A DNA stretch of 63,272 nt, taken from a virus. A model generated the notes under the pieces. The model was not told the origin of the DNA, ran no database searches, and saw nothing but the letters and a program-made list of their open reading frames with translations. This document shows, in pieces, positions 3,058 to 21,774 of the stretch. The position numbers and the translations under genes were made by a program. How positions within the stretch are numbered: position 1 is the first letter of the stretch; every line of letters starts with the position of its first letter. Location of the stretch: positions 1-63,272 of IMG/VR virus record IMGVR_UViG_3300042870_001093; one strand, given 5' to 3'.

Positions 3058-4392
3058 ATGAGTGAACACGAAAAATTTCAAAAAGTTATTCCAATCCTAA
3101 ATGCTGTTAGTCCTAGTTTTTGTTTAGCCAAATGGTATCAACTAACATTATATCTCCAAAACGGTTTTAACCATAGTTGCCACCATCCATCACCTCATAA
3201 GATTCCATTAGACGAGTTAGAGCAAAATCACAAGGCTCTACATAATACTAATTTTAAAAAAGAACAAATGCAAAAAATGCTCGATGGCGTTAGACCCGCC
3301 GAGTGTGACTATTGTTGGACCGCTGAAGATAACGGGCATGTAAGTGATAGAAGTTATAAAAGTGCAACATCTTGGGCCTATCCTCACATTGGCGAAGTTG
3401 TTAAAAATAAAACAGCTGATGTTGAACCTACATACGTTGAAATTAGTTTTAGCAATGTGTGTAATTTTAAATGCGCTTATTGTAGTCCAGATCTTAGTAG
3501 TCAATGGTATGAAGAAATAGACAAGCACGGTGGGTATCCTACTAGTCAAAACTTTAATGGGTTTGATTGGTTTAAACAAGTTGGAAAGATGCCTATCAAG
3601 CATAGCGATCACAATCCTTATGTCGATGCGTTTTGGAAATGGTGGCCGGAACTTTATCCTAAATTAAACACGCTAAGACTAACAGGCGGGGAACCACTGT
3701 TGAGCAAAGATGTCTGGCGTATGTTAGATGCTATAGAAGCTGATCCCAAACCAGAGTTTTGCTTTGCTATTAACACTAACTTAGGAATCCCAGACGAGTT
3801 AATTAATCGTATGATTATAAAGCTCAATAGTATTTCTAGTAAAATTAAAGAAGTACAAATCTTTACCAGCGGAGAAGCAGTTGGCGCTCCTGCTGAATAT
3901 ATTAGATATGGATTAGATTATTCAGCATGGACTAAAAACTTAGAAAAAGTTTTAAATAATACCAATAACATTGTTGCTGTAATGACTACTGTTAATTTAA
4001 CTAGCATTACAACCTATTGTAGTTTTATACGATACTTGTTAGACTTGCGTAAGCATTATAATAAGAATGCCACATTTAATAAAGTTCAGTTTATGACTAA
4101 CTTTTTACGGTATCCAGAATTTCTGTCATTACCTATTTTAGACTCTGCTAGCAAACAAAGATTTACAAAAGAAGTAGCAAAATTAATTTTAGAAAGACCT
4201 GACTTATCAGAAAGTGAAATAGATCAGTTGCGTCGTATGATTGACTATATGAACAGCACTGATATCAAGGAATTACAATTAAGAAAAGACTTTGCATCTT
4301 TTATCACTGAATATGATATTAGACGGGGAACCAACTTTAATAAAACATTCCCTGAACTTACAGAATTTTATCAACTATGTCAACAAATGTAA
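3058..4392 (+). CDS. Radical SAM protein 1 with N-terminal auxiliary-cluster (twitch/SPASM-like) region
   Basis: A 444-residue radical SAM enzyme. The CxxxCxxC motif that binds the catalytic 4Fe-4S cluster is CNFKCAYC (C135, C139, C142). The SAM-contacting GGEP motif is at 210-213. The N-terminal ~90 residues carry a second cysteine set (C22, C41, C83, C86, the last two in CDYCW) that probably holds an auxiliary cluster, so this region precedes the barrel instead of following it as in classic SPASM enzymes. Such enzymes cleave SAM to a 5'-deoxyadenosyl radical to modify peptides, sugars or other substrates. It is the first gene of a tightly overlapping operon and a close relative of the next gene. 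Substrate unknown. Confidence 0.88.
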   Translation: MSEHEKFQKVIPILNAVSPSFCLAKWYQLTLYLQNGFNHSCHHPSPHKIPLDELEQNHKALHNTNFKKEQMQKMLDGVRPAECDYCWTAEDNGHVSDRSYKSATSWAYPHIGEVVKNKTADVEPTYVEISFSNVCNFKCAYCSPDLSSQWYEEIDKHGGYPTSQNFNGFDWFKQVGKMPIKHSDHNPYVDAFWKWWPELYPKLNTLRLTGGEPLLSKDVWRMLDAIEADPKPEFCFAINTNLGIPDELINRMIIKLNSISSKIKEVQIFTSGEAVGAPAEYIRYGLDYSAWTKNLEKVLNNTNNIVAVMTTVNLTSITTYCSFIRYLLDLRKHYNKNATFNKVQFMTNFLRYPEFLSLPILDSASKQRFTKEVAKLILERPDLSESEIDQLRRMIDYMNSTDIKELQLRKDFASFITEYDIRRGTNFNKTFPELTEFYQLCQQM

Positions 4393-5705
4393 AACGCACA
4401 ATAGAAATTATTAACGAAATAAGTCCTAGCTTTTGTGCCGCAAAGTGGTACAATGCTACTATATGGTTAGGCAACGGACGAACAGCCAGCTGTCATTTGC
4501 CACCTGCTCATACTATACCCATAGCTGAAATCAAACGAAACCCGTCTGCTCTACACAATACCGTCTTTAAGAAGGACCGCCGATTAGAAATGCTAATAGG
4601 TGAGCGATGTGACGAGTGCGCTTATTGCTGGACTGTTGAGGATAATGCAGCACCTGATGTATATAGTGATCGAGTTTATAAGACTAGGATTTATGAAGAA
4701 GAAGAAATACTTCAGCTGGCTAAATTAGATCCTGGATCAGATGTTGACCCAAAAACTTTAGAGATCAGTTTTGATAATTTATGTAATTTAAGTTGTAGTT
4801 ATTGTAATGCAGAGTTCAGTACTACTTGGGCTAGTGATATTAAGGTTAATGGTCCGTACATTGAATTAAAAACATCAGGTGGTGGTGCGTTTCAAAATGC
4901 CGGGGAACATGCGTTACCTTACGGGATTAAAAATGAAAACAATCCCTACATCGAAGCGTTCTTTACATGGTTTCATGCTAGCCTTAAAAATAATTTACAA
5001 GAACTAAGAATCACCGGGGGTGAGCCTACTCGTAGTCCATCATTTTGGAAATTGTTAGACGAATGCGAAGGTACAAATTTTGATTTTGCTGTTAACAGTA
5101 ATCTTATAATGGATCAAGTAAAGTTAAATCAACTTATTAGTGCTAGTAAAAAGTTTAAGAAATTTGATCTATATACCAGCGGTGAAGGCTACGGGGCCCA
5201 CGGAGAGTTTATTCGTCATGGGTTAGACTATACATTATGGCGTAACAACTTAATACAATTTGCCAAAGAAGGTCAATATAATATGATACATGTTATGATG
5301 ACTATTAGTGCTCTAAGCATTTGGACCGTAACAGAGTTTATGACAGATATGTTAGAGCTACGTAAACAATTTGGTGGCCATCAGTTCCATATGAGTCTTA
5401 ATTTAGTACGCTTTCCTAGTTTTCAAAACTTAAACGTATTACCTGAACACTTAAAACAAACACAAGCGGCCAAGATTGAAACTTGGCTAAGTAGTGTTGT
5501 TGGGCTAAGTCCTGCCGAAGCTAATCAAATAGAGAGAATAGCTGTGTATCTTCGAAACGTTGATCGTAGTCAAGAAGATACCGACAGCCAAAACAATAAG
5601 GTGCATGATTTAAAAAGTTTTACACAACAATATGCTGATAGAAAAAATATCACATTAGCTAGGGTATTCCCAACAGAATTTATAGAATGGTTTAACACAA
5701 TATGA
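4377..5705 (+). CDS. Radical SAM protein 2 (paralogue of protein 1)
   Basis: 442 residues with the same architecture as the preceding protein. It has an N-terminal SPSFCAAKWY motif (C20), a CAYCW pair near residue 80, the radical SAM motif CNLSCSYC (C136, C140, C143), and TGGEP about 75 residues later. The two proteins share SPSFCxAKWY, the ALHNTxFKK segment and CWTxEDN, so they arose by tandem duplication. The start at 4377 overlaps the upstream gene by 16 bases and lacks an obvious Shine-Dalgarno sequence, suggesting translation by coupling. It is likely a cytoplasmic iron-sulphur enzyme that may act with protein 1. Substrate unknown. Confidence 0.87.
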   Translation: MSTNVKRTIEIINEISPSFCAAKWYNATIWLGNGRTASCHLPPAHTIPIAEIKRNPSALHNTVFKKDRRLEMLIGERCDECAYCWTVEDNAAPDVYSDRVYKTRIYEEEEILQLAKLDPGSDVDPKTLEISFDNLCNLSCSYCNAEFSTTWASDIKVNGPYIELKTSGGGAFQNAGEHALPYGIKNENNPYIEAFFTWFHASLKNNLQELRITGGEPTRSPSFWKLLDECEGTNFDFAVNSNLIMDQVKLNQLISASKKFKKFDLYTSGEGYGAHGEFIRHGLDYTLWRNNLIQFAKEGQYNMIHVMMTISALSIWTVTEFMTDMLELRKQFGGHQFHMSLNLVRFPSFQNLNVLPEHLKQTQAAKIETWLSSVVGLSPAEANQIERIAVYLRNVDRSQEDTDSQNNKVHDLKSFTQQYADRKNITLARVFPTEFIEWFNTI

Positions 5706-6916
5706 GCGAAGACAAATTTTGTATAGTGCCATGGATACATCTTAATACAGAACCTAACGGTCGTGTTAAGCCTTGTTGTGCGTATCTTGGACAAGATTTT
5801 GGAAACTTAAAAGATACTACACTAGAAGAAATATGGAATAACGAACATACTAAATCTATGCGTAGAAGCTTTTTAGAAAATAAAATTCCAGAAGGATGTC
5901 TAACCTGTACTAAAAAAGAAGACAGCGGTGGTGTAAGCTATAGAATGGCGGTTACTGAAAGATTCAGCCATCATATTGAAAAAGCTAAAAGTAACACATT
6001 GCCCGACGGTACTTATGAAACGTTTGAAATAATTTTTTGGGATTTTAGATTCAGCAATATCTGTAACTTTAAATGTCGTATGTGCGGACATGGTAGTAGT
6101 AGTTCTTGGTTTGACGACTTTACACCTGAAGAAAAGAAAACTAAGGTAAAGTTCCTTGACAGTGCGTATTATGGAACTAATTTAATGAAATATGTTGATC
6201 AGTTTATTGACGATGTTGAAGAAATCTATTTTGCTGGCGGTGAACCATTACTTATGGCCGAACACTATCAGATACTAGATAAGCTAATTGCCAAAGAACG
6301 ATATGATGTATTTTTGCGTTACAACACCAATATGAGTACTATCAAGTATAAAGATTACGACCTGGTTGATATCTGGAAACGATTCAAAGATGTTAGAATT
6401 TTTGCAAGTATTGACGGCATTGATGAAAATGCAGAGTACAGTAGATCTGGAACTGACTGGCCTAGAGTAGAAGAAAACTTAGTCCGTTTATCACAATCAA
6501 ATGTTGATTATGTAGTATCAACTACTATAAACATTCTCACAGTTTTTAATTTTACTAAACTAGTTGATCGACTAATAGAATTAAAAATGTCGACTAGGAA
6601 AGTACTAGTAAGTCACGTTAACTGGCCTAAGCACTATATGTCGTCAATTTTGCCCGAAGAGCTAAAAGATCAAATACGTTTACAACTGGATCAACATTTA
6701 GAAAAAATAACGCTGGCCGTAACCGAAGAAGAAAGTCGATGGTTAGCTAACCTATACAACGAAATTAAATTTTATTTAATCTCAACAACATCAACAGAAG
6801 AAACCACGACCTTACAACAGCGATTTAAAAGAGATACTATTAAGTTAGACCGTATTAGAAAAGAAGATATAAGAACGGCTGTACCAGAATTAGCCGAATG
6901 GTTTGATACATTATGA
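5702..6916 (+). CDS. Radical SAM protein 3 with N-terminal twitch domain
   Basis: 404 residues of a second subfamily. The N-terminus has the typical twitch-type pattern FCIVPWIHL (C7), PCC (C25, C26), GNLKD, EEIWN, and CLTC (C66, C69), then a GG-x-S-x-R element. The radical SAM motif CNFKCRMC is at C121, C125 and C128, and GGEP is at 179-182. This layout is known from twitch-domain radical SAM proteins of marine phages and bacteria whose substrates are mostly uncharacterised. The ATG overlaps the upstream stop by four bases (ATGA). It is more similar to protein 4 than to proteins 1 and 2. Confidence 0.9.
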   Translation: MSEDKFCIVPWIHLNTEPNGRVKPCCAYLGQDFGNLKDTTLEEIWNNEHTKSMRRSFLENKIPEGCLTCTKKEDSGGVSYRMAVTERFSHHIEKAKSNTLPDGTYETFEIIFWDFRFSNICNFKCRMCGHGSSSSWFDDFTPEEKKTKVKFLDSAYYGTNLMKYVDQFIDDVEEIYFAGGEPLLMAEHYQILDKLIAKERYDVFLRYNTNMSTIKYKDYDLVDIWKRFKDVRIFASIDGIDENAEYSRSGTDWPRVEENLVRLSQSNVDYVVSTTINILTVFNFTKLVDRLIELKMSTRKVLVSHVNWPKHYMSSILPEELKDQIRLQLDQHLEKITLAVTEEESRWLANLYNEIKFYLISTTSTEETTTLQQRFKRDTIKLDRIRKEDIRTAVPELAEWFDTL

Positions 6917-8121
6917 GTGATAAATTTATTTGTGATTTTCCCTGGATTCATTTAAGTGTGTTTCCACAGGGCAACTGTACTGTATGCTGTGTGGCTAAAC
7001 ATTCGGGTAAGGGCAACGGACATAGTTGGAACAGAGTCAGTGAGGATAAAACTAAAACTATAACAGTTATGAATAGTTCTATACCAGAGATTGTTAACTG
7101 CGATAATTATAAAACTATTAGACTAGATATGTTAGCAGGCAAGGTACCGACTGCATGTGAGGGGTGCCATCAAATTGAACAGGCTGGTGGAAAAAGTAAA
7201 CGACAGCAAGAAACTACTCGAAATTTAGATCATGCGGCATTGACCTCAGTTGACGGTTCTATCAAGACAGATCTTCGTCACATTGAATTACGATTAGGAA
7301 ATTTTTGTAATTTAAAATGTCGAAGCTGTAACGCAGACTCTAGTACAAGCTGGATTCAAGATTACTATAAATTAAAAGATACAGTCAAGTTAGCTAGTGG
7401 TTATCATTGGATTAAAAGTAATCCTGATTTTAGTTTTGATTGGGTAGACGATGAATCTTTTTACAACAGATTAACAGAATTTGCTCCTAATCTAGAACAA
7501 ATACATATAAGTGGTGGCGAACCATTCCTTGTACCTACTCACTTTAAACTATTAGAAAAATTAGTGCGAGATGGTAAAACAGATATCGCTATTCACTACC
7601 ATACAAATTTAAATTATAAATGGGATAAAATTACTCCAGCATTGGATCTATTGACTAAATTTAAAGAAGTACATATTAGTTTCAGCATTGATGATGTTGG
7701 AGAGCGCAACACTTATATTAGAAGTTTAAGCGATTGGGATTTAACCATTAGTAACTTAAAATTATTTTTAAATAATTACAAATTCATTTATCGTGTAACT
7801 CAAACTGTCAGCGTCTATAATTTTATGTATGTTGAAGAATTAGAAAGGTATTTAGCCAACAATAAAATACGTATTAGAGTAGGTTTAAATCATGTTCAGA
7901 GCCCAGACTACTTATCAGCTAATATATTATCTAAACAAATGCGACAAGATAAAATTAATTCACTATACGGTATTATTGATCGACGCAATTGGGAAGATCT
8001 TTATGGCCATTACTATACTCCAAAAGACAACGGACAGTGGGAATACTTTAAATATTTTACAGAAAAAATTGATACTGTGCGTAACGAAGATTTAAATAGT
8101 ATTTTTCCAAAACTAGCATGA
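6913..8121 (+). CDS. Radical SAM protein 4 with N-terminal twitch domain
   Basis: 402 residues. Its N-terminal region carries C5, a PWIHL motif, VCC near residue 25, and CEGC in the segment PTACEGCHQIEQAGG, followed by KSKRQQ. The catalytic cluster motif is CNLKCRSC (C132, C136, C139), with SGGEPF further on. Compared with protein 3 there is an insertion of about 35 residues between the CC pair and the second cysteine pair. The gene is joined to both neighbours by ATGA overlaps, so stoichiometric production is likely. Substrate unknown. The protein could modify a sugar nucleotide or a peptide, given the glycosyltransferase operon that lies tail-to-tail with this one. Confidence 0.89.
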   Translation: MSDKFICDFPWIHLSVFPQGNCTVCCVAKHSGKGNGHSWNRVSEDKTKTITVMNSSIPEIVNCDNYKTIRLDMLAGKVPTACEGCHQIEQAGGKSKRQQETTRNLDHAALTSVDGSIKTDLRHIELRLGNFCNLKCRSCNADSSTSWIQDYYKLKDTVKLASGYHWIKSNPDFSFDWVDDESFYNRLTEFAPNLEQIHISGGEPFLVPTHFKLLEKLVRDGKTDIAIHYHTNLNYKWDKITPALDLLTKFKEVHISFSIDDVGERNTYIRSLSDWDLTISNLKLFLNNYKFIYRVTQTVSVYNFMYVEELERYLANNKIRIRVGLNHVQSPDYLSANILSKQMRQDKINSLYGIIDRRNWEDLYGHYYTPKDNGQWEYFKYFTEKIDTVRNEDLNSIFPKLA

Positions 8122-8918
8122 AATTTATTTTTTTAAAATCGGGCGACTATTTAGAATTAGAACCCAACAACACTCCTATAGCATCTGTTTGGTTTGAAAG
8201 CATTTTTTCTAAAAAAATGAATATGAGTTATTTTGCTAGAGATACTTCGTTTATAACTCGTTCTAACGAGACTATTAATAATCTAAATACTGCAATTGAT
8301 ATAGTTAATAAGTTTGCTGTAGAAAAAAATCTACCTCAAATCATGTTTGATAAAATTGTTGGTATTGATCAACAATGGCTCAATGCGTCACATAAAAAAT
8401 GGGTATTGCACACTGACAGATTAAAGAATATAGTTAATGGCGACGATACAAAACAAAACTATCCCGGCTTTGTGAAATCTTGGCAAAATATCAATTTATA
8501 CATTCATTCTTTAGAATATTATTATTCTGTTTATTTTACTAATACAAAAGGAGCATATTTAGAAAATATTGATATTAAAATACAGCCGGAAGATTGCGAA
8601 TACTCACAACACGATCTAATTTTAAGATTTGACGATTTAGGAAAACATCAGTATGACCAATGGATTACTGGAAGCGCAGTTGATGAAGAAACTAGCAATT
8701 ACAAAACAATTTCGGCTAGATTTGAATATGCATTTAATCCGCAATTAAATAAAGGAATTCTTCCTAATCCAGCATATATAGAGTGGTGTAATCAAAATAA
8801 TTTACAAGTTATGCCACCGTGGATTATTTTAGGAAACTTTAAAAAGAATAAATGGGAAATTAAACAACTCATACATCAAAATTTATCTCGAGGATTAGAA
8901 GTAGGATTTGAATTATGA
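8118..8918 (+). CDS. Unknown protein in the radical SAM operon, 266 aa
   Basis: I do not recognise a family. The protein is rich in aromatic residues and Asn, starts MKFIFLKSGDYLELE, and contains FESIF, a WQNINLYIHSLEYYYSVYF stretch near residues 118-136 and a PPWIILGNF motif near residue 232. No cysteine cluster, signal peptide or membrane segment is visible. Strand-rich composition suggests a binding protein rather than a classical enzyme. It is coupled by ATGA overlaps to radical SAM protein 4 and to the SGNH-like gene, so it is very likely part of the same pathway, perhaps as a substrate-presenting partner. That role is inference from position. Confidence 0.75.
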   Translation: MKFIFLKSGDYLELEPNNTPIASVWFESIFSKKMNMSYFARDTSFITRSNETINNLNTAIDIVNKFAVEKNLPQIMFDKIVGIDQQWLNASHKKWVLHTDRLKNIVNGDDTKQNYPGFVKSWQNINLYIHSLEYYYSVYFTNTKGAYLENIDIKIQPEDCEYSQHDLILRFDDLGKHQYDQWITGSAVDEETSNYKTISARFEYAFNPQLNKGILPNPAYIEWCNQNNLQVMPPWIILGNFKKNKWEIKQLIHQNLSRGLEVGFEL

Positions 8919-9778
8919 AAATTTATGTAAATGGAGATAGTTTTACTGCTGGCGACGGATTGTCTGATCCAGAAGTTTTTCCAGATTTGTATCCAGGGCA
9001 TCATTCTTGCGACATAGAATTTGACGTAGCATGGTGTAATAAAAGGCATGCAATGCTAGATAAAAATCTTGATTTACACAATCACTGGCAAATTAATAAT
9101 AAGAAATATGTGTGGTCTACAATATTAGGAGAGCTAGTTAATACTATGTTAGTTAATGACAGCGTTACTGTAGTTAATGGTGCCATTGGCGGATCATGTA
9201 TGACAGGCATATCAACTAGAACTATTGCCTATCTTGAATCATTAAGAAGTCGAGCAGACTTGCCAGATCATGTTTTCATAGGCTTAACAAGCATTGGAAG
9301 ATTAGGTTGGTATCACGAAGATACACAAGATATTGGTAAAATTTTTAATTGGGTTAAATCGACTATTCCAGGATTTCATTATCGAGGACATGAAAGTAAA
9401 CATAAAAAATTGTTTGAAACTATTTGGACAACACTCAGTGATGAAGAACTGCTTATTAATTATCTAAAAGAATGTTTACAAATTAAAAATTATGTCAAGA
9501 GAAGAATTGGACGAGATCCTATTTTCTTAAACACTGTGGGTGAATTTTGGCAATACAAAGAAATAGTCAATAACTCTAAAAATCAATGGCTTCGAATGCT
9601 TTGGTTTGATTTATTAGAATTTGATAAGATTAACAATCGATGGTTCAATAAAGGAGCGTTTGAACAAATGACTGCGTGTGGACACGTACTTCCGCCTGGT
9701 CATGCTGAATATGCTAGAGATTTAGCAAGAGAACATTTTGGATGGGGTAAAAATCCGGATGATAGGGATGCCAATTAA
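8915..9778 (+). CDS. SGNH/GDSL-type hydrolase-like protein
   Basis: 287 residues. The N-terminus has the block I signature NGDSFTAG with the presumed nucleophile S9, followed by a glycine-rich GAIGGS element near residue 90. Near the C-terminus PPGHAEYARDL places a candidate catalytic His at about residue 263, as in block V, although the usual Asp three residues before it is not evident. SGNH hydrolases are esterases and acetyl-transfer enzymes, often acting on carbohydrate acetyl groups. The gene is last in the radical SAM operon, with an ATGA overlap upstream, and its end faces the glycosyltransferase operon 17 bases away. An esterase acting on a phage-made or host glycan is plausible. Confidence 0.72.
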   Translation: MKIYVNGDSFTAGDGLSDPEVFPDLYPGHHSCDIEFDVAWCNKRHAMLDKNLDLHNHWQINNKKYVWSTILGELVNTMLVNDSVTVVNGAIGGSCMTGISTRTIAYLESLRSRADLPDHVFIGLTSIGRLGWYHEDTQDIGKIFNWVKSTIPGFHYRGHESKHKKLFETIWTTLSDEELLINYLKECLQIKNYVKRRIGRDPIFLNTVGEFWQYKEIVNNSKNQWLRMLWFDLLEFDKINNRWFNKGAFEQMTACGHVLPPGHAEYARDLAREHFGWGKNPDDRDAN

Positions 9779-9795
9779 GTATCTAGTATAGATTA

Positions 9796-11781
9796 TTATT
9801 TTTTTACTAAGGATTGAAATGTATTAAATTGCTTTTGCAACCATTCAAAATCGTTAATTTTTCTTAACTGATCGGCATCAGCAATATTCAATAATCCGTA
9901 CTGTTTTCCAGCTCGAGCTCCTGCTATACTATATTCTCCATAAAGTTTATCAGATCCAATACTACACCAAGTAATTAATCGATCTTCAGTTTCTTCTTGA
10001 TATCCAGAATCAACAGGACGGCTGGCTAATTTTACACACTCTCTAAACGCAGATTTCCAAGTATTAAACGGATCGGTATTAAAAACTGTTAGATTACTAA
10101 CTTCTTTTATAACTTTAAATTTTTTGCTTATTGCCATAGTCATGTCAACACTAGACATGTCCATATTAATAGTTAAGTTTTTAGGCAATAATTTAACACC
10201 GCCATAGCCGTATGTTAATCCGTTGATAGGATTTTTGCTTAACCAAACATGAACAATATCTGTATCGTGTTTAGGTAGTAGTAGGTCAAATTGAAAATCA
10301 TCTTCTATTATTGCATCACCGTCTACTACCCAAAACATTGGAGTTGTTGCTAATTTTGCGGCTGCAATGTGTGCTTGGTGAATACCTTTTACGCCGTGTA
10401 CACGTTTGGCTCTCGGAAATTGATCAATTAATTTAGCAAAATTTTCATCTGCATTAGGTTCGTTATAAGATATAAACACAATATCGTATAATTTTAATTT
10501 ACTTGCCACAAGGTCATATTCTTTTTTTTCAATCAAATATCTATATTCAACTTCTCTTGCAGAAATAAGTCTTTTCTTCGATAATAACATTATACCGTTG
10601 TACTTAATTTCTTCAACATCAATATTTTTAAAGACGTGATTTATACTAAGCTCATACTTATTTTGGTATGGAAATTGAAGATCAAATTTAAAATCTGGCG
10701 CAGGTTCAACTTCCGGAGGAATCGCCCAAAACATATCTGTATCAGCTGTGTTAAGAGCATGTTCGTAATCACTAAACGTATCGATTACAAATTTGTCGTA
10801 CGGTTTATATTTGCTGGCCACTAGATCGTGTTCTTTTTTATCTATAAAAAATCTATGTTCAATCTCTTTCTTAGATACTGGCTTATTTGTAGAAAATAAC
10901 ACAACACCGTTAACGAACGATTCCTGATCGTTAGATATATTTTTAAACACGTGATTTTCGTTTCGATCATAGGAATTATGGTGACTAAAATAAGTTTCAA
11001 AAATTTGATCATTAATTATTTCAATATTTGGCCATACTCCCCAAAACATTGTTAAAGGTGAATTTTCTAATGCAGATCGATATTCTTCATAATTGTTAAT
11101 AATAAAAATAGGATATGTTTTAGGTTTACTAGCTACTATATCAATTTCTTTTTTGTTAACATAAAATCTATGATCAAATTCTTTTTTACTAATTTCTTTG
11201 TATTTTGAAAACAACGCTATTCCGTCAAAAAATTCTCCGTTTTTAAATACATGAGTTATGTTTCGATGAAATGCATCGTATGTTGGAACATAATAATCAA
11301 AAAGAAAATTTTCGGCTACAACAACATCATCCCATACTGCCCAGAACATCGCTGTTGAAGATTGCTCTTTTGCATTTAAATAATCGTTGTATGTTTTTAT
11401 ATTATGAATTTCAAATTTCTTAGGAGTTGATGCAATTACATCCATCTCCTTTTTGTTCATAAAAAATCTATGATCAAATTCTTTTTGTGTAGTATTGGCT
11501 GTTTTAGGAAATAGATTTATTCCGTCAAATGTTGTTCCGTTTAACCAAACGTGGGTATATTCTTCGTCCCACTTAGATACTCTGTATTCAAAATTAAAAT
11601 CGTCAGCTACAACAACATCATCCCATACGACCCAAAAGAATTTTGTAAATGCTTTCTTTTTAATGTCATCGAACGATTTTACATTATCAATTTTTTGAGA
11701 AGATGGAAATTTAGAACGAAATTGTTTCCAATTTTGTTCATCAATAATATTTTTACTTACATAAAAAATATCATAGACCAT
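9796..11781 (-). CDS. Glycosyltransferase-like protein with four decayed tandem repeats, 661 aa
   Basis: The C-terminal unit (residues ~428-661) matches the adjacent 303-residue glycosyltransferase: YDIVFISYNEPNADEN, RVHGVKG and a DGD metal-binding motif at 487-489. Four shorter units precede it (about 1-118, 119-218, 219-323, 324-427). Each has MFW or FFW, a WDDVVVA-like strand, HVxKN or HVWLN, a DHRF-like motif and KKExDxVAS. WDD is kept in units 1 and 2 but replaced in units 3 and 4, so most units have probably lost catalysis. The start overlaps the upstream gene by 11 bases. Roles could be sugar transfer by the last unit and acceptor or partner binding by the others. Confidence 0.72.
   Translation of the reverse strand: MVYDIFYVSKNIIDEQNWKQFRSKFPSSQKIDNVKSFDDIKKKAFTKFFWVVWDDVVVADDFNFEYRVSKWDEEYTHVWLNGTTFDGINLFPKTANTTQKEFDHRFFMNKKEMDVIASTPKKFEIHNIKTYNDYLNAKEQSSTAMFWAVWDDVVVAENFLFDYYVPTYDAFHRNITHVFKNGEFFDGIALFSKYKEISKKEFDHRFYVNKKEIDIVASKPKTYPIFIINNYEEYRSALENSPLTMFWGVWPNIEIINDQIFETYFSHHNSYDRNENHVFKNISNDQESFVNGVVLFSTNKPVSKKEIEHRFFIDKKEHDLVASKYKPYDKFVIDTFSDYEHALNTADTDMFWAIPPEVEPAPDFKFDLQFPYQNKYELSINHVFKNIDVEEIKYNGIMLLSKKRLISAREVEYRYLIEKKEYDLVASKLKLYDIVFISYNEPNADENFAKLIDQFPRAKRVHGVKGIHQAHIAAAKLATTPMFWVVDGDAIIEDDFQFDLLLPKHDTDIVHVWLSKNPINGLTYGYGGVKLLPKNLTINMDMSSVDMTMAISKKFKVIKEVSNLTVFNTDPFNTWKSAFRECVKLASRPVDSGYQEETEDRLITWCSIGSDKLYGEYSIAGARAGKQYGLLNIADADQLRKINDFEWLQKQFNTFQSLVKK
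10501..11781 (-). repeat. Four ~100-residue coding repeats in the glycosyltransferase-like gene
   Basis: Units of about 118, 100, 105 and 104 codons, each ending in VAS, occupy the 5' 427 codons of the gene. They are recognisable at protein level (EFDHRF, EIEHRF and EVEYRY in successive units) but diverged at DNA level, so the duplications are old rather than recent slippage. Confidence 0.75.
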
Positions 11782-12682
11782 CAGTGGTCCTCATATATGT
11801 ATTTGTTAATTTAATAGTTTCTTCGTACAAATCTAAAGTATATTTGCTCTGTTGACTATCTAGATAGGGATAATCAAAACCTAGTTCTAATTTAATTTTT
11901 TCACCTAATGATTTAATTTCATCATCTAGACCATCACCGCCTACTTCTTCAAATGGGCGGCCATATTGATTCCAAATACCTTTAAGGATTTCAAAGTCTC
12001 GAACCTCTACATAATTCCAGTCGGTACAGTTTGCTAACCAAGTGCCTAATCTAGCACCATATATAGCATAAAGTCCGTTTTCTTCATGAGCACCAACTGT
12101 TGACCACATACGTAATCTATGCAAATTGTGCCACCAAACACGTTCGCTAATCTCTTGTGGTGACACTTTAACTCCATCGAGTAAGGTCATTTTAACGCCT
12201 TCACGAAATCCTGCTCTCCATGCTTGAAAAGGACTTCCGGTAATATCAGTATCACTATAACATTCTTTAAATTGACGATACCCATCTTCCCAACAAAAGT
12301 CTACTTGAGCGCGATCGCTTTCACTAGCTTCATGGGTTTTCATATTGAGAATAAAATCTCGTTTCCATATTTTAAGCCCGCCATTACCGTAGAGTAAGCC
12401 ATTAAGTTTGTTTTTTCCTAGCCAACTATATACCTGTATCTTAGGATTACTTGTATCGATGTCTAGATTAAAAAATTTAGGATTAACTATATTATCAGCG
12501 TCAACCGTAATAACCCATTCAGTTTCACTTAACTCAGCTGCTGCCTTATGTGCAGCATCACTACCCTTCACCCCGTGAACTCGTTTAGCCCAAGGAAGTT
12601 TATTACATAAATCAGCATAATGCTTATCTGCATTGGGTTCGTCATAACTTAAAAATACAATGTCAAGTTCTATTGTTTTCAT
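11771..12682 (-). CDS. Glycosyltransferase-like protein (GT-A fold), 303 aa
   Basis: The N-terminal beta-alpha-beta start (IELDIVFLSYDEPNAD) and a DAD motif at 61-63 (WVITVDADN) indicate a GT-A nucleotide-sugar-binding fold. GVKGSDAAHKAAAEL lies between them. The middle part has VYSWLGKN, GLLYGNGGLK and a W-rich C-terminal half with GSPFQAWRAGFREGVK, which the 661-residue neighbour also shows. The protein is of normal single-domain size and probably transfers a sugar to a phage or host acceptor in the cytoplasm. It overlaps the next gene by 11 bases and the previous one by four (ATGA). The donor sugar cannot be predicted. Confidence 0.78.
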   Translation of the reverse strand: MKTIELDIVFLSYDEPNADKHYADLCNKLPWAKRVHGVKGSDAAHKAAAELSETEWVITVDADNIVNPKFFNLDIDTSNPKIQVYSWLGKNKLNGLLYGNGGLKIWKRDFILNMKTHEASESDRAQVDFCWEDGYRQFKECYSDTDITGSPFQAWRAGFREGVKMTLLDGVKVSPQEISERVWWHNLHRLRMWSTVGAHEENGLYAIYGARLGTWLANCTDWNYVEVRDFEILKGIWNQYGRPFEEVGGDGLDDEIKSLGEKIKLELGFDYPYLDSQQSKYTLDLYEETIKLTNTYMRTTDGL

Positions 12683-13272
12683 ATTGTTTCAAATATATAT
12701 TTGTCAAAAATTCGCCTTGTATAAACACTAAATCTATTTGGCAAATCTAATGTAAATAATTTTGTATTTTCTGTAATGTCGCCTGCCCTAATGCTTAACA
12801 TATGAAGGAGGACATTGGGGTCGTTGTAATCAGTTACTAAAAAAATCATTTCAGTTGCACCGTCCCAAATAATATTATTTGAGTATTTGTCGCTCATTGA
12901 AAATATTAATGTACTATTTTTTGTATCATGTGAAATTGTGATATCAGGATCTTGCATATTTGACCACTTTTTATCTATTATTCTATGCAAGATGTCATCG
13001 ATCTTTATTAGACTATGGGTGGAAAATTTGTTTAATTTAACTAATTTCTTAGTTGGTAAATCAACCCTATAAGAAAATAGATTTTCCTCTCCTGTAGAAA
13101 CTGCTGTGGCAATTTCTTCATCAATTTTTATATTATTTGTATTATCAAATACCGCATGAGAAGGATATATTCCAATTAAAGATCCGTCATCTTTAAATGT
13201 TGCATAGTATTCGACGGTTTGATTGACTGGTAATTTAATCCACTCGTCAAAGTCCATTAATTCTTGTTCCAT
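12679..13272 (-). CDS. Unknown protein in the glycosyltransferase operon, 197 aa
   Basis: No recognised family. The N-terminus is acidic (MEQELMDFDEWIKLP). The body is strand-rich with TVEYYATFKDDGSLIGIYPSH and a C-terminal stretch with IIWDGATEMIF. No DxD motif, membrane segment or signal peptide is visible. It is coupled by a four-base overlap to the glycosyltransferase downstream and by 16 bases to the upstream one. An accessory or carbohydrate-binding role is possible from context only. Confidence 0.68.
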   Translation of the reverse strand: MEQELMDFDEWIKLPVNQTVEYYATFKDDGSLIGIYPSHAVFDNTNNIKIDEEIATAVSTGEENLFSYRVDLPTKKLVKLNKFSTHSLIKIDDILHRIIDKKWSNMQDPDITISHDTKNSTLIFSMSDKYSNNIIWDGATEMIFLVTDYNDPNVLLHMLSIRAGDITENTKLFTLDLPNRFSVYTRRIFDKYIFETI

Positions 13273-14099
13273 GCAATCTCCTCTAACATACTAACTATTT
13301 CGTCATTAACTAGATCTTTTTCAACATAATGCACAATATTATATTGCTGATAATTTCCAATTTTTAAATTTCCCTGTGTATTAAAATAAAAACCTGCATG
13401 TTCAGTGACCCTTTCGGCAGTCCAGGGCCAATTTTGAATCATCGGTTTCATATGTACTATATTAGGAAACGCTAAATCATAACTTATAATATCACTTATA
13501 TCTAAAATCTTTGCGCTTAGAGCGAATGCTTCATCTGTTCCAACAACTTTTGGTTTATGTTTAGTAAGATATAAATTACTAAACTCTAAAGGGTTTTTTA
13601 TAATATATCTACCTAAATTGAAAAATTCTGTTGCAAGCTCGGATCCTTGTTTAAAAAAAGTAAACATGGAATATAAATTAGGAAGATTGTTTTTTGTAAA
13701 TGTTTTTCTATAAAAATCATTTATGATTGTTTCACCTCTATAGGTTAAGGCCTTTGGAGGAATGTATAATTCACAATTTTCAATAAAGTAATCAATCCAA
13801 TGGCTATGATCCCTAAGAAAAAGCATGTCTGCATCAAGGCATACTGTATTTTCAAAAGGAGATAGTTGATCCATCCAGCTACGGCCATCCCAATGTGTTT
13901 CTTTATCCCAGGTAATTACATGATCAAAAACCCAAGGACTTTTTAAATTATTAACTAGCTGAGGTTTATCGATTACTAAAGCAACTTTATTGTATCCTGG
14001 TTTCTGAGTATTTTTAATACTTAATGCAAGAGCATAGGCCAGTTTAAGATAGTCTATATTATCATTCGAAGCAACAAAAATTAAATAACCAAAGTTCAT
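13257..14099 (-). CDS. Glycosyltransferase-like protein (GT8-type DAD motif), 280 aa
   Basis: The start GYLIFVASNDNIDYLKLAYA resembles the nucleotide-binding strand and helix of retaining GT-A enzymes. A WMDQLSPFENTVCLDAD segment places the DxD metal-binding motif at D89-D91, preceded by a typical 'path to the donor' strand. LFLRD after the motif is typical of the GT8-like group. It probably works in the cytoplasm on a sugar nucleotide. It is linked to the genes on both sides by overlaps (four bases upstream, 16 downstream). The shared design with the 286-residue neighbour suggests divergence after duplication. Confidence 0.76.
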   Translation of the reverse strand: MNFGYLIFVASNDNIDYLKLAYALALSIKNTQKPGYNKVALVIDKPQLVNNLKSPWVFDHVITWDKETHWDGRSWMDQLSPFENTVCLDADMLFLRDHSHWIDYFIENCELYIPPKALTYRGETIINDFYRKTFTKNNLPNLYSMFTFFKQGSELATEFFNLGRYIIKNPLEFSNLYLTKHKPKVVGTDEAFALSAKILDISDIISYDLAFPNIVHMKPMIQNWPWTAERVTEHAGFYFNTQGNLKIGNYQQYNIVHYVEKDLVNDEIVSMLEEIAWNKN

Positions 14100-14956
14100 A
14101 TTAACTCCAGTAGTTTTTCTTTATTTCTAATAATACTTTGTTTGTTCATAACGTGAACATCAGAACCTTGTGTAGTTGCAGCCCAAAAATCTCCGCAATT
14201 AAGTGGTTTGTCAATTAGGAACGTTAGCCGATCTCCATTTACATCATGTAAAATATCTTTATCAAATACTGTTAGAATAGGAGGTAATGTATAAACAAAC
14301 TCAGTTTCAAACCCGTTCATGATATGTTTGGCAACGCTAAATGAAATGTCGTTTCGATATTGCCTTGGGTCAAATCTAAATAGGTCGGCATAATATCTAT
14401 AATTGTCTTTAATATAATCAACTAATTTAAAAAAGAATCTACTTTCTTCGTTTTTAGTAAACATTACAGTAGTGGCCCAAAACATATGAACTCCGGTTTC
14501 ACTTACACGTTGATCTAATATACCGCTGCGGTCACCTGTTATATCATTCATAGAATGTCCTAACATCACACTACTATCTGTGTTCCAGTACTCATTTAGT
14601 TTGTTAGAAAAGATTAAATAATCACTGTCAACTAACAGGGTTTGATCGTAAGGACTTAAATCCCAAACTGAAAATCTATTTGAATTTACAAAAGGAATTG
14701 TCTGGCTGTAAAAACCATCATGAAGTTTTCTTGTATTTTTTGTTCTAGGCTTTTCAATTTCAATAATCTTATCAAAAATAGATTCGGCTCTAGCATACAT
14801 CTCTGATTCTTTTAACCAAGCAATTGTCCATTTGTCTGTTATTAAACTAACTGGTAATCCCAAATGTTTTTTTGCTAGGCCGCCAGAAATTATACCCATT
14901 ACACCATAATCTACTTCTGGGCCATTATGAGCAAAAATTAATACGCCTTTAGTCAT
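14096..14956 (-). CDS. Glycosyltransferase-like protein (DSD motif), 286 aa
   Basis: MTKGVLIFAHNGPEVDYG forms the first strand and loop. A DLSPYDQTLLVDSD segment gives a DxD motif at 110-112, and further on there are motifs typical of the same GT-A group (FWATTVMFTKNEES, DPRQYRNDISFS). The spacing LSP(F/Y)-x5-6-(V/L)-D-x-D matches that of the 280-residue neighbour. No membrane anchor is visible. It follows the small late gene at 14953-15303 with a four-base overlap, so it should be made late in infection together with structural proteins. Acceptor unknown; virion fibres or a host glycan are candidates. Confidence 0.76.
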   Translation of the reverse strand: MTKGVLIFAHNGPEVDYGVMGIISGGLAKKHLGLPVSLITDKWTIAWLKESEMYARAESIFDKIIEIEKPRTKNTRKLHDGFYSQTIPFVNSNRFSVWDLSPYDQTLLVDSDYLIFSNKLNEYWNTDSSVMLGHSMNDITGDRSGILDQRVSETGVHMFWATTVMFTKNEESRFFFKLVDYIKDNYRYYADLFRFDPRQYRNDISFSVAKHIMNGFETEFVYTLPPILTVFDKDILHDVNGDRLTFLIDKPLNCGDFWAATTQGSDVHVMNKQSIIRNKEKLLELI

Positions 14957-15360: not shown

Positions 15361-16272
15361 TTATGAACCAGAAATTGCGCTCAAAGAAGACGACGAGGGG
15401 CCTACAGTGGTAAATGTCCCACTTGGTTGTAAAAATCCAGAAGGACGAACCTGATCAACTGTTAGAGTAAGCGTACCGTCAACTAAATCTCCAGGAGGAA
15501 TTGCCGGTGTTCCGCCTCCTGGCACTGGATCAGTGTATGCATCTAACCACGTTATTCTAAAATTAACAATGTTTGCTGTTCCTAACAAGTTATTAGAAAC
15601 ATTACAAGACGCTTCTAACCGCCATTTATTATTAGAATATGCCGAGCTACCTGAAATTTCAGCAAAAGTTTGAAAACTACTAGTTAAAGAAAAGAAATTA
15701 ATTCCAGAGGGGCCACCTACAAATGCTTGAGCTCCTGCAGAATTCAATAAATTACTCCACGATGTATTTTGTGCTTCACCGTTGCCGCCAGTTCTAGTAC
15801 TAGCGAATCGAATTTTTCCGCCGGCATTAAAGAAGAATCTTGCCTGTTCTGCTGTAGAAAATGTAACTGATGCTGTAGCACTAACTGATTGATACCACGA
15901 AGAAGTAAATGATGTGCTGTTGATTGCTTCTGTAACAAATTGTCCTGTACCTAGGTCAAATCTATTTGTAGTTGCTGTATCTGCAAAGGTATTGTATTGA
16001 AAATTAGGTTGGCTGGCACCAAATCTCACCACATCGCCTACAGCCACTGTGGTCAATGCGGCAGCTGATCCTGTTTGATGTAACAGCGCATTATAGATAT
16101 CATATCTCAAGGCATCCCATTGAGTCTTTGTTACTGAATTTCCTGCTGCTACTAAAGAACTGAATGTGTTTTGTCCGTAACCAGAATTACCAGCTCCCGT
16201 GGCCATTACATTGAATATTTTTGTTCTGATTGTGTTATAATCAGTTGCAGAAATAAAATCACCGATTGCCAT
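15361..16272 (-). CDS. Fibre or virion structural protein, 303 aa
   Basis: A low-charge, Ser/Thr/Gly/Asn-rich protein typical of phage fibres and adhesins. The N-terminal ~100 residues (MAIGDFISATDYNTIRTKIF, then TKTQWDALRYDIYNAL) look like an attachment module, and the rest is strand-rich with SFTSSWYQS and IRFASTRTGG. A PVPGGGTPAIPPG linker near residue 250 precedes a C-terminal tip. It lies downstream of the paralogous fibre genes with RBS AAGGAA. I see no enzymatic motif. Host binding or fibre attachment is likely from composition and position. Confidence 0.75.
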   Translation of the reverse strand: MAIGDFISATDYNTIRTKIFNVMATGAGNSGYGQNTFSSLVAAGNSVTKTQWDALRYDIYNALLHQTGSAAALTTVAVGDVVRFGASQPNFQYNTFADTATTNRFDLGTGQFVTEAINSTSFTSSWYQSVSATASVTFSTAEQARFFFNAGGKIRFASTRTGGNGEAQNTSWSNLLNSAGAQAFVGGPSGINFFSLTSSFQTFAEISGSSAYSNNKWRLEASCNVSNNLLGTANIVNFRITWLDAYTDPVPGGGTPAIPPGDLVDGTLTLTVDQVRPSGFLQPSGTFTTVGPSSSSLSAISGS

Positions 16273-16281
16273 AAATTTTCC

Positions 16282-18036
16282 TTATAATACCAATGCTTCA
16301 ACTAGTTTGCGATCTAGGTCTGTGTTTGATTCTAATGCAATAGCAAACACATCGTTGTCCTGCGGTTCGGCTGCCACGGCATTGCCATTATTTGCAGCTA
16401 CAAGACGTTGACCTTTTTTCACTGCTCCTGTAACATACACAGGCACACGCCCTTTGAGAGCAATATATGTTCCGCCTTCAAGATCTTTGTTCATCATAAA
16501 TCCAGGATTGGCCGATACCACTCCTACAGCTCGGTCGCCATACTGTGCAGCGGTGACTTCTTTGTCTCCGCCTACTGCTACCACTGTGCCTACTTCATAT
16601 TCTTTATCTGCTAGATATTTTTCAGCAAGATCTGCATATTGCGCTGCGGTTGCTGTGCCGTCGAAGGTATTGGCCAATAAATTTCCTGAACCATCTCTAG
16701 CTGCAATTGTGTTGGCTGTTTTTGTAGTCTTAGCAGACCTGTAATCGGGATCTGTGTCTACTGCTGCATCATTTATCCTAGTTCTATCTGATTTATCTAC
16801 AACCCCAATAAATCTAGTAGCAGTAATATTACCACTGCCATCTCTCAAAGCCACAGAAGTTGCCACTGCGCCAAGTTCTCCAACTAGACTGTTCAAAGTC
16901 AAAGCGTTGGTGGCTGTACCTGTGACTGAACCTATCACGTTGCCTGTGAGTGTTCCCGAGAAGCTGCCTGAGAATATTTTTGTAACCGCGGTATAGGCCA
17001 CAGAATTGTCGTCAGCAAGTATATTACCTTTGTGTACACCTGTGGTATTTCCGGTTACATTACCAGTTAACGCACCTGTAAATGTGGTTGAATGCACGTT
17101 GGCCCATTTGGAAACAGCAGAACCAAGAGTAAAGAAATTGTCTGTACCTGGAATCATGCCGGTTGCGGTTATAATGCCAACATTGCGAAGATCACTATCC
17201 GATACTCTTATTCTCAAGGTTATAGTGTTGCCTAATCTGTTTTCAATAATAGGTTCATCGCCGTTTTCAACACGGATTCTTAAATCATTTTGATCGCCTA
17301 CTGTAAGACCGGCATCGGCGAAAGCAATTGCATTGGTAAAGGATACCTCACCCAGTCTAACATATTCACTAGCAGGAAAGCCGCCTAATCTCAACGCATT
17401 ACTTGCTGATCCCCAGAAATAATGATCTGTGGTTGTTACTCCGGTAGTTCCGTTAGTGTTAACTAAGTTGACACCTTTTTTGATCACCGAAAATCCTGTT
17501 ATAGGATTTAAAACGCTGTTTAAGGTAAATGCATCTTTGCTGACGATTGATATTACATCACCGCCAGATTGAAATTTTACTATGGTATGATTGTTGTTGA
17601 GAGTGTCTTTGACTACCTGTGCTTGTACTGCTGATGCACCTAGATCTGGCAAGGTTTCAGGGCCAATTAATACAAATTCAGTGCCAGTATAGGCATACAG
17701 TTGTTCGGCTCCGGTATCAAACCAAAAATCTCCGGCCTGCAATCCGCTAGGAGGAGTAGGTCCTATCTCTGCGCCGCTGGCTGTTCTAAATTTTGTGCCG
17801 TCGTAAAATCGTAGTTTTTTTAGGCCACTGTCATACCAAATTTGACCAGTTACTCTTTTTGGAGGGGCTGATGTATTGGCAAAGTTTTCCAGCAAATGTA
17901 GGAAATTCTCGTTCTGTACTTCGCCGTAGCCAGCGTAATTTTTACCTACAAAACGCAAATCAGTGGTGGTATCAATGGTACCGTCGTCGACAGAGACTAA
18001 GAACGTTCCATTAAATTTGTCTACTTGATATGCCAT
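16282..18036 (-). CDS. Tail fibre-like protein A, 584 aa
   Basis: The N-terminal ~190 residues are shared with the next three genes: DGT-x-DT, VGKNYAGYGE, NENFLHLLENFAN, GQIWYD, then a DAFT motif. This should be the module that docks to the baseplate or a fibre hub. A repetitive strand-rich shaft follows (GALTGNVTGNTTG, LTGNVIGSVTG). The C-terminal ~130 residues start at AAQYADLAEKY and contain GVVSANPGFMMN, a domain also found in fibre B and resembling peptidase-G2-like or trimer-forming tips. It is the last of the four paralogues in transcription order and has its own late-promoter-like octamer. Confidence 0.85.
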   Translation of the reverse strand: MAYQVDKFNGTFLVSVDDGTIDTTTDLRFVGKNYAGYGEVQNENFLHLLENFANTSAPPKRVTGQIWYDSGLKKLRFYDGTKFRTASGAEIGPTPPSGLQAGDFWFDTGAEQLYAYTGTEFVLIGPETLPDLGASAVQAQVVKDTLNNNHTIVKFQSGGDVISIVSKDAFTLNSVLNPITGFSVIKKGVNLVNTNGTTGVTTTDHYFWGSASNALRLGGFPASEYVRLGEVSFTNAIAFADAGLTVGDQNDLRIRVENGDEPIIENRLGNTITLRIRVSDSDLRNVGIITATGMIPGTDNFFTLGSAVSKWANVHSTTFTGALTGNVTGNTTGVHKGNILADDNSVAYTAVTKIFSGSFSGTLTGNVIGSVTGTATNALTLNSLVGELGAVATSVALRDGSGNITATRFIGVVDKSDRTRINDAAVDTDPDYRSAKTTKTANTIAARDGSGNLLANTFDGTATAAQYADLAEKYLADKEYEVGTVVAVGGDKEVTAAQYGDRAVGVVSANPGFMMNKDLEGGTYIALKGRVPVYVTGAVKKGQRLVAANNGNAVAAEPQDNDVFAIALESNTDLDRKLVEALVL

Positions 18037-18058
18037 TGATCAACTCCGTTGTAACTAT

Positions 18059-18066
18059 TATTTATC
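18059..18066 (-). promoter_or_regulatory. Candidate late promoter GATAAATA
   Basis: The minus-strand octamer lies 22 bases upstream of the ATG at 18036, in the 44-base gap between two fibre genes. It differs from TATAAATA only in the first base. This would give fibre A and the 303-residue protein extra late transcription. Confidence 0.55.
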
Positions 18067-18080
18067 GTAAATACACCCAT

Positions 18081-19898: not shown

Positions 19899-19924
19899 TT
19901 ATCGCTCCGTTACATATTTAACCA

Positions 19925-21763: not shown

Positions 21764-21774
21764 TTGTTTTTACC

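Follow-up and report, generated by a model that had tools for sequence, protein, structure and literature searches.

The window analyzed here is the whole of the IMG/VR virus record IMGVR_UViG_3300042870_001093 (63,272 bases), from an uncultured virus of bacteria, and our subject is a run of six genes near its start, which encodes four radical S-adenosylmethionine (SAM) enzymes (rSAM, r1 to r4), an unassigned protein (u5) and an SGNH-like protein. The six open reading frames (ORFs) fill positions 3058-9778 of the plus strand, all begin with ATG, have no internal stops and overlap in gene order by 16, 4, 4, 4 and 4 bases. The first-pass annotation, made by a model from the letters and a list of ORFs, had described six overlapping genes with four complete rSAM proteins, and ORF coordinates, overlaps and motifs bear this out. 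The structural genes of the window appear T4-like by eye, one of them carrying the tail-collar domain PF07484, and gp23 is present on three longer contigs whose r1 and r3 are identical to those of the window; by its gene content, the virus looks like a T4-like phage.

All four rSAM proteins exceed the curated cut-off (170 bits) of the NCBIfam model NF033640, “twitch domain-containing radical SAM protein,” and cover nearly the whole model (Table 1), a family whose name is uninformative on function. Each harbors a single CX3CX2C motif, a single GGEP motif and an N-terminal cysteine set, C-X12/13-G-X4-C followed by C-X2-C, as the annotation had noticed. All four fit, with X12 or X13, what we take to be the auxiliary-cluster motif (C-X9-15-G-X4-C plus an N-terminal CX2C), and their pattern is presumably that of SPASM/twitch domains. 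The seven cluster cysteines, on whose conservation in homologues the annotation had staked its reading, are invariant in every non-redundant orthologue aligned: 126/126 for r1 (C22, C41, C83, C86, C135, C139 and C142; 78 sequences from the genome collection), 31/31 for r2, 27/27 for r3 and 11/11 for r4, orthologues being chosen at no less than 250 bits, 40 ahead of the next group, and 370-560 aa in length. An extra cysteine, forming a CC pair, is common to r3 (25 of 26) and r4 (invariant), and these two also pass the cut-offs of PF13186 (SPASM) and PF04055, with r1 and r2 falling below them. The proposed division into two pairs likewise holds, since identity is 35.6% between r1 and r2, 27.2% between r3 and r4 and 22.6-25.5% between pairs, and a tree of 93 chosen sequences splits r1/r2 from r3/r4 with a support of 100 on a branch of 2.42. 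In this tree, which is unrooted, made by a quick method with supports from the Shimodaira-Hasegawa approximate likelihood-ratio test (SH-aLRT) only, and so less certain than a careful one, r1, r2 and r4 each join phage proteins, some as low as ~47-55% in identity, in starred clades, and r3 groups with other phage r3 proteins (support 91); in a larger FastTree (214 rows), each of the four lies in a starred viral clade, r3 together with 11 others. Judged by these alignments and trees, r1-r4 are four old orthologous groups in two pairs. A recent tandem duplication was rejected as incompatible with both trees. The haem synthase AhbD was rejected as well: against TIGR04545 (cut-off 500), r3 reached 24.8 bits, with its best stretch at residues 19-81, and no match was listed for r1, r2 or r4.

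Table 1. Features of the array and of the facing block in the window
Feature	Position	Strand	Details
r1, N-terminal-twitch rSAM, commonest array member found	3058..4392	+	444 aa; NF033640 344.5 bits
r2, second N-terminal-twitch rSAM, r1/r2 superclade	4377..5705	+	442 aa; NF033640 272.9 bits; tree; 16-base overlap with r1
r3, N-terminal-twitch rSAM with SPASM match	5702..6916	+	404 aa; NF033640 382.7 bits; PF13186 4.7e-12, PF04055 6.6e-14
r4, N-terminal-twitch rSAM, r3/r4 superclade	6913..8121	+	402 aa; NF033640 326.3 bits; tree
u5, unassigned protein, divergent family U member	8118..8918	+	266 aa; hhalign probability (P) 96.3, E 2e-9
SGNH-like protein	8915..9778	+	287 aa; GDS near N-terminus, GH..P..H near C-terminus
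661-aa cluster-1 protein, glycosyltransferase-like by eye	9796..11781	-	clustering
Cluster-1 protein, glycosyltransferase-like by motif only	11771..12682	-	invariant D-x-D-N (alignment of 11)
Cluster-3 protein	12679..13272	-	cluster in 41 loci; neighbour overlaps 4 and 16 bases
GT8-like glycosyltransferase, cluster 2	13257..14099	-	family profile vs glycogenin-1, E 1.6e-7
GT8-like glycosyltransferase, cluster 2, second copy	14096..14956	-	same profile

To follow the array in other viruses, we used scans with r1, r3, r4 and u5, keeping one locus per contig, which gave 90 loci including the window (loci are cited by L numbers). The r1 scan comprises the best 80 of 273 hits, and many of the contigs are fragments and several near-identical, so that the counts are not frequencies. 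One family gene was found in 25 loci, two in 15, three in 12, four in 22, five to ten in 15 (one of those counted as five has an interrupted r2) and none in one; the largest array holds 10 genes in 21 kb, and a 518-kb contig with gp23 has 16 members over the NF033640 cut-off. The order 1-2-3-4 recurs in 19 of the 20 contigs, window included and several near-identical, that have enough length and an r1 at least 69% identical; L040, with an interrupted r2, is counted among the 19, and the sole exception, L060, has no r3 orthologue between r2 and r4. The co-occurrence of the genes in relatives, which the first-pass annotation had named as decisive, was thus observed. At ~45-55% r1 identity, the strings vary (1-1-2-3-4 in L064, 1-2-3-3-4 in L057 and L081, 1-2-x-4-3 in L065, and 1-2-3 in L052, L056, L063, L076 and L077), and a lone r1 is likewise common among viral loci. 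In the distinct array loci of viruses, 121 pairs of family genes are direct neighbors on one strand; 114 of these pairs overlap and in none does the gap exceed 60 bases. Together with the scores over the NF033640 cut-off, this speaks for more than a chance arrangement. Three variants of the enzymes themselves were also seen. In L040 (4027-5330), r2 is split into two ORFs, the other five genes being 90-97% identical to those of the window; this interruption could be a sequencing error. L026 (10001-12454), and likewise L027-L031, encodes two N-terminal-twitch rSAMs fused head to tail in a single 817-aa ORF. In L056 (7712-9106), a short rSAM of 260 aa (8016-8798 in L056, start 7712 in L057) is followed by a free-standing 103-aa protein matching the SPASM model PF13186 (E 2e-4), and the auxiliary-cluster domain thus seems, from its sequence, to be a separate gene in L056 and L057. 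In a tblastn search of 50,697 isolate phage records, r1, a cluster-1 protein, the SGNH-like protein and two U proteins of relatives had no match; r3 had matches in 40 Vibrio phage records.

Next to the array, on the opposite strand, lies a glycosyltransferase-like block (9796-14956), and tail-fibre proteins are encoded further on, within 15361-23847. The profile of cluster 2, of which the window has two copies, matches glycogenin-1 over 116 of 288 positions, and in 19 sequences the first aspartate of its DxD motif (D89) is invariant and the second (D91) nearly so; a Pfam search with this GT8-like cluster was without match. The 661-aa cluster-1 protein contains, by eye, several ~105-aa repeats related to the neighboring cluster-1 protein. 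The connection of this block with the array is best seen in L017, where two GT8-like genes, cluster 3, two cluster-1 genes, r1-r4, u5 and the SGNH-like gene form one run in which every junction overlaps, suggesting translational coupling across runs of this type. This run sits downstream of tail-fibre-region genes, as does that of L045, and L026 has the same glycosyltransferase-like block followed by a different rSAM set; the same-strand cluster-1 gene overlaps r1 by 11 bases in L017 and by 20 in L026. Of the distinct array loci, 64 have 4 kb or more on one side; among these, a same-strand cluster-1 gene directly precedes the first rSAM in 33, tail-fibre clusters are found in 37, and tail-fibre and glycosyltransferase clusters together in 35. 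Relative to L045, L017 and L018, the six-gene block is inverted with respect to its flanks in the window, L038 and L044, and the six genes stay together, which explains why the glycosyltransferase-like block faces the array in the window. An invertible switch acting through inverted repeats was rejected, as the 25 longest of 245 repeat pairs included no arms at both ends of the six-gene block. Single neighbors in viral loci tested by Pfam comprise GT7 (PF02709), a methyltransferase (PF13578) and a carbamoyltransferase (PF02543). The full pathway proposed in the first-pass annotation is plausible, because the unit exceeds six genes, the glycosyltransferase-like block overlapping it in relatives.

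The two remaining genes of the run are less easily assigned. Compared profile to profile, u5 aligns with a family that we call U over 222 columns at 16% identity (Table 1), and family searches gave nothing convincing for it (one PHROG of unassigned function at E 0.002); its AlphaFold2 (AF2) model is weak (predicted local distance difference test, pLDDT, 75), and a PDB search gave no match. Family U has invariant residues H92, N126, H130 and G175, with N89 nearly so, and occurs near arrays in viral loci L054, L057, L076, L081 and L082 and in cellular loci L146, L160 (~7 kb off), L171, L185 and L198. The idea of an obligate rSAM partner was rejected, as 7 of 12 viral loci from the U scan have no family rSAM in the stretch covered; the one contig among these seven that was searched whole, the longer contig of L220, has two NF033640 genes over cut-off elsewhere, and phage Atu_ph07 shows a fold-level match to u5 with no protein over the NF033640 cut-off. 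The array-less loci are L217-L223; in L218, L219, L222 and L223, the U gene stands beside SGNH-like and peptide deformylase genes and, in some, carbamoyltransferase look-alikes, all recognized by eye. The SGNH-like protein keeps its GDS motif and C-terminal histidine in the five relatives aligned, in support of the name given by the annotation; the same alignment shows no block-III asparagine, and Pfam, NCBIfam and PHROG yielded no match, so that only part of that assignment stands.

The family is also carried by bacteria. A scan of genome contigs with r1-type proteins (best 80 of 101 hits) gave 77 loci, 59 of them under record titles naming Bdellovibrio-like organisms; among the other 18, L157, L159 and L202 look like phage contigs because they contain T4-like tail genes. 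We then counted genomes with proteins over the NF033640 cut-off in three phyla, which take their names from the record titles of the loci through which they were reached: 41 of 144 in the G001 phylum (Halobacteriovorax record), 3 of 200 in that of G161 (betaproteobacterial title; 2 of 199 minus the centre) and 1 of 148 in that of G163 (Flavobacteriales title; 0 of 147 minus the centre), with 0 of 14 control genomes. Among the three phyla sampled, Bdellovibrionota thus stand out, with chromosomal arrays. In the 144 genomes of the G001 phylum, such proteins occur in 13 of 15 U-positive and 28 of 129 U-negative genomes (Fisher p 1.1e-6), a test uncorrected for kinship and also biased: it was by their proximity to r1-type genes that the U profile's cellular rows had been found, and the sample contains at least one of the genomes behind these rows (L160, which recurs as L226). 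A strong family gene adjoins U in one of ten ~4-kb U stretches from this phylum and a weak one in another; U was found in 0 of 200 genomes of the G161 phylum, without positive control. L155 (Bacteriovoracaceae) reads r2, r3-like, r4, r3, r4-like, a short ORF, r1, r2, and is flanked by genes resembling housekeeping genes. In L205 (7734-16110, titled only “bacterium”), a helix-turn-helix gene and a PF00589 integrase stand upstream of r2-r4-r3-r2, an arrangement that suggests transport of arrays on integrative elements. In the 93-sequence tree, viral rows are mixed with cellular ones, and starred branches force at least nine changes of label; repeated exchange between phages and bacteria is therefore likely, as far as unrooted trees can tell. 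Neighbors in Bacteriovoracales include GT1 (PF00534), carbamoyltransferase (PF02543), PqqD (PF05402), an S74-domain protein and an ABC exporter; the labels ABC exporter, S26-like, DegT and housekeeping were given by eye in bacterial loci, one S26 test (E 0.024) staying below cut-off.

Based on these observations, we propose, with a probability of about 0.5, that the genes belong to an exchangeable cassette whose enzymes use C-H chemistry to tailor a glycan, either of a surface or of the virion. A glycan is favored as substrate because the glycosyltransferase-like genes overlap the array in relatives and because of the tail-fibre position; sugar enzymes (BlsE, DesII) among the fold neighbors count in its favor as well. 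In this model, the six genes would be the tailoring half of a cassette that a T4-like phage carries among its host-recognition (tail-fibre) genes, and the block at 9796-14956 the other half, whose glycosyltransferase-like proteins, two of them GT8-like, would build the glycan. Each of r1-r4 is predicted to bind two clusters, a [4Fe-4S] cluster for SAM cleavage and an auxiliary one at the N-terminus, and would alter the glycan at unactivated C-H positions, every step (oxidation, epimerisation, deoxygenation or coupling) falling to a different paralogue. Addition or removal of an acyl group would be the task of the SGNH-like protein, u5 may act in an accessory role or recognize the acceptor, and the acceptor could be the phage's own tail fibres or the surface polymer of the infected cell. 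Several points weigh against this model. The glycan is so far a candidate substrate, chosen by gene context; cluster 1 has no Pfam match and no credible PDB match as a glycosyltransferase; 29 of the 64 arrays have no combined tail-fibre and glycosyltransferase context in the stretch covered, some because the contig ends. The T4 late-promoter motif TATAAATA is not enriched in the window (3 occurrences vs 6.9 expected), nor is the pattern allowing one mismatch (44 vs 42 expected), and late expression, which the model would involve, is consequently suggested solely by gene position. Two further points, the fold comparison and PqqD, bear directly on the main alternative.

According to that alternative, the enzymes would modify a protein or peptide, either an adjoining tail-fibre or virion protein or a host peptide, in the manner of SPASM/twitch maturases, which we regard as possible, at odds well short of even. 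The AF2 model of r1 (mean pLDDT 92.5) has no full-length match among the 50 solved chains listed (top template-modeling (TM) score to the query 0.37), and the highest Z among the matches listed is that of SkfB (13.5; 230 residues, 3.9 A), followed by BlsE (12.9), DesII (12.7) and anSME (12.3). These proteins and MoaA share the rSAM barrel with r1 (Z 11.9-13.5, 217-237 residues), most alignments reaching little beyond it, and differ from r1-r4, in which the auxiliary-cluster cysteines are N-terminal; the modeled folds leave peptide and sugar chemistry unseparated, peptide enzymes being tied. The N-terminal cysteine pattern, the PF13186 matches of r3 and r4 and the tail-fibre clusters beside arrays also agree with a protein substrate. 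PqqD is a peptide chaperone in known systems. It occurs near r1-type genes in Bacteriovoracales (PF05402, 4.1e-16), and in the Halobacteriovorax loci L186, L188 and L211 the genes for PqqD and then for a short protein with an S74 chaperone domain come after an r1-type rSAM gene of the same strand; PqqD in bacteria and the twitch domain together keep a protein or peptide substrate in play. In contrast, the overlaps leave no space for a precursor gene between adjacent array genes, glycan enzymes often neighbor the arrays, and a PqqD profile built from the bacterial loci found nothing (E 0.01) among ORFs of at least 60-70 aa, whether from the viral loci or from the window's first 25 kb. Two marks of a maturase of ribosomally synthesized and post-translationally modified peptides (RiPPs) are thus missing, a precursor gene beside the maturase from the viral arrays and a PqqD-type domain, at this threshold, from the viral loci; lack of the former makes a classical RiPP cluster less likely but does not bear on modification of tail fibres. 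Of the products that the first-pass annotation had listed, a sugar fits best and a peptide second, and none of these observations points to a lipid head group.

We consider it improbable that the enzymes make a small molecule or modified nucleotide, as in DNA hypermodification: T4-like phages are known for modified bases and a carbamoyltransferase lies near some arrays (L216), but no nucleotide-modification gene was recognized when the surroundings of the array were inspected by eye (a search that did not extend to the rest of the genome), the array sits in the tail-fibre region, and in bacterial chromosomes the family lies near sugar-polymer genes. A horizontally mobile cargo that lacks a fixed role in this phage would agree with the inverted block, with the variable array content at one site and with the integrase of L205, and is highly improbable given that the seven cluster cysteines do not vary in any aligned orthologue and that the overlaps are kept at ~50% identity. 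Viperin-like antiviral or counter-defence nucleotide chemistry is scarcely credible: viperins are among the fold neighbors and the pVip model PDLC02903 gives weak matches (E 1.8e-5 to 8.9e-8), but these span the shared rSAM core only, scores with the NCBIfam prokaryotic-viperin model NF038283 (16.9-26.1 bits) stay far below its cut-off of 180, and viperins are not known to have a twitch domain; the viperin and defence labels were both rejected.

Returning to the glycan-tailoring cassette, a broader version may be put forward as speculation that we would not expect to hold in full: T4-like phages and predatory Bdellovibrionota would share a dedicated multi-step rSAM system, with at least four orthologous enzymes and U, that remodels the surface attaching to a bacterium (tail fibres or cell-surface glycopolymer); the chemical diversity of this surface would depend on how many paralogues a genome has (from 1 to at least 16), and arrays would move between both as ready-made pathways. 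If the tailoring of glycans or tail fibres is true, the arrays represent C-H-modifying enzymes that are as yet unexplored and would give phages a new means of varying their contact surface, and the conserved gene order makes the pathway testable.

The statement of the first-pass annotation that phages occasionally carry one such gene is wrong, as multi-rSAM phages were in print in 2010, 2017 and 2020. Campylobacter phages CP220/CPt10 are reported to have 11/12 rSAM proteins and an exchangeable five-rSAM module (PMC2853527). They resemble the window in being T4-related with an exchangeable multi-rSAM block; in CP220, the one of the two that was searched, no protein exceeds the NF033640 cut-off (best 30.9 bits), and its rSAMs are therefore a different family. 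Excerpts of two further accounts describe a T4-like genome, TARA_ERS488813_N000010, with 12 rSAM genes (PMC5332604) and pelagimyophages that differ by rSAM cassettes in the host-recognition cluster (PMC7029224). The latter are T4-like and carry their cassettes in the tail-fibre/glycosyltransferase region, as the window carries its array, a likeness drawn from description, for those excerpts state neither family, order, orthologous groups nor partners. In Tasman Sea phage samples, rSAM and glycosyltransferase genes are enriched together, as the relevant excerpt puts it (PMC7150976). Vibrio phages KVP40 and K566 have several rSAM genes close together, like the window; their proteins are 22-26% identical to r3, and two of K566 exceed the NF033640 cut-off, with the KVP40 members below it. 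A Baltic study reports, in the sections concerned, 261 viral “ahbD” genes, calls inferences on function speculative, and finds PF13186 and PF04055 together, in neither the Archaea nor the Desulfovibrio class, in three contigs only (PMC9301287). As r1 and r2 fall below the cut-offs of these two models and r3 and r4 above, such labels may cover the NF033640 family. We recognized no account of NF033640 arrays, their gene order, the GT8-like overlap, the U family or the Bdellovibrionota link in the open-access literature searched, judged mostly from listings. New here are the ordered array 1-2-3-4 in distant phage contigs, its overlap with GT8-like genes, the U family and the enrichment in Bdellovibrionota. 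Taken together, where surveys of viruses have recorded scattered auxiliary metabolic genes, the present analysis finds four old subfamilies lined up in ordered arrays with overlapping genes; these arrays go with glycosyltransferase-like genes and, in the sampled cells, chiefly with predatory bacteria.

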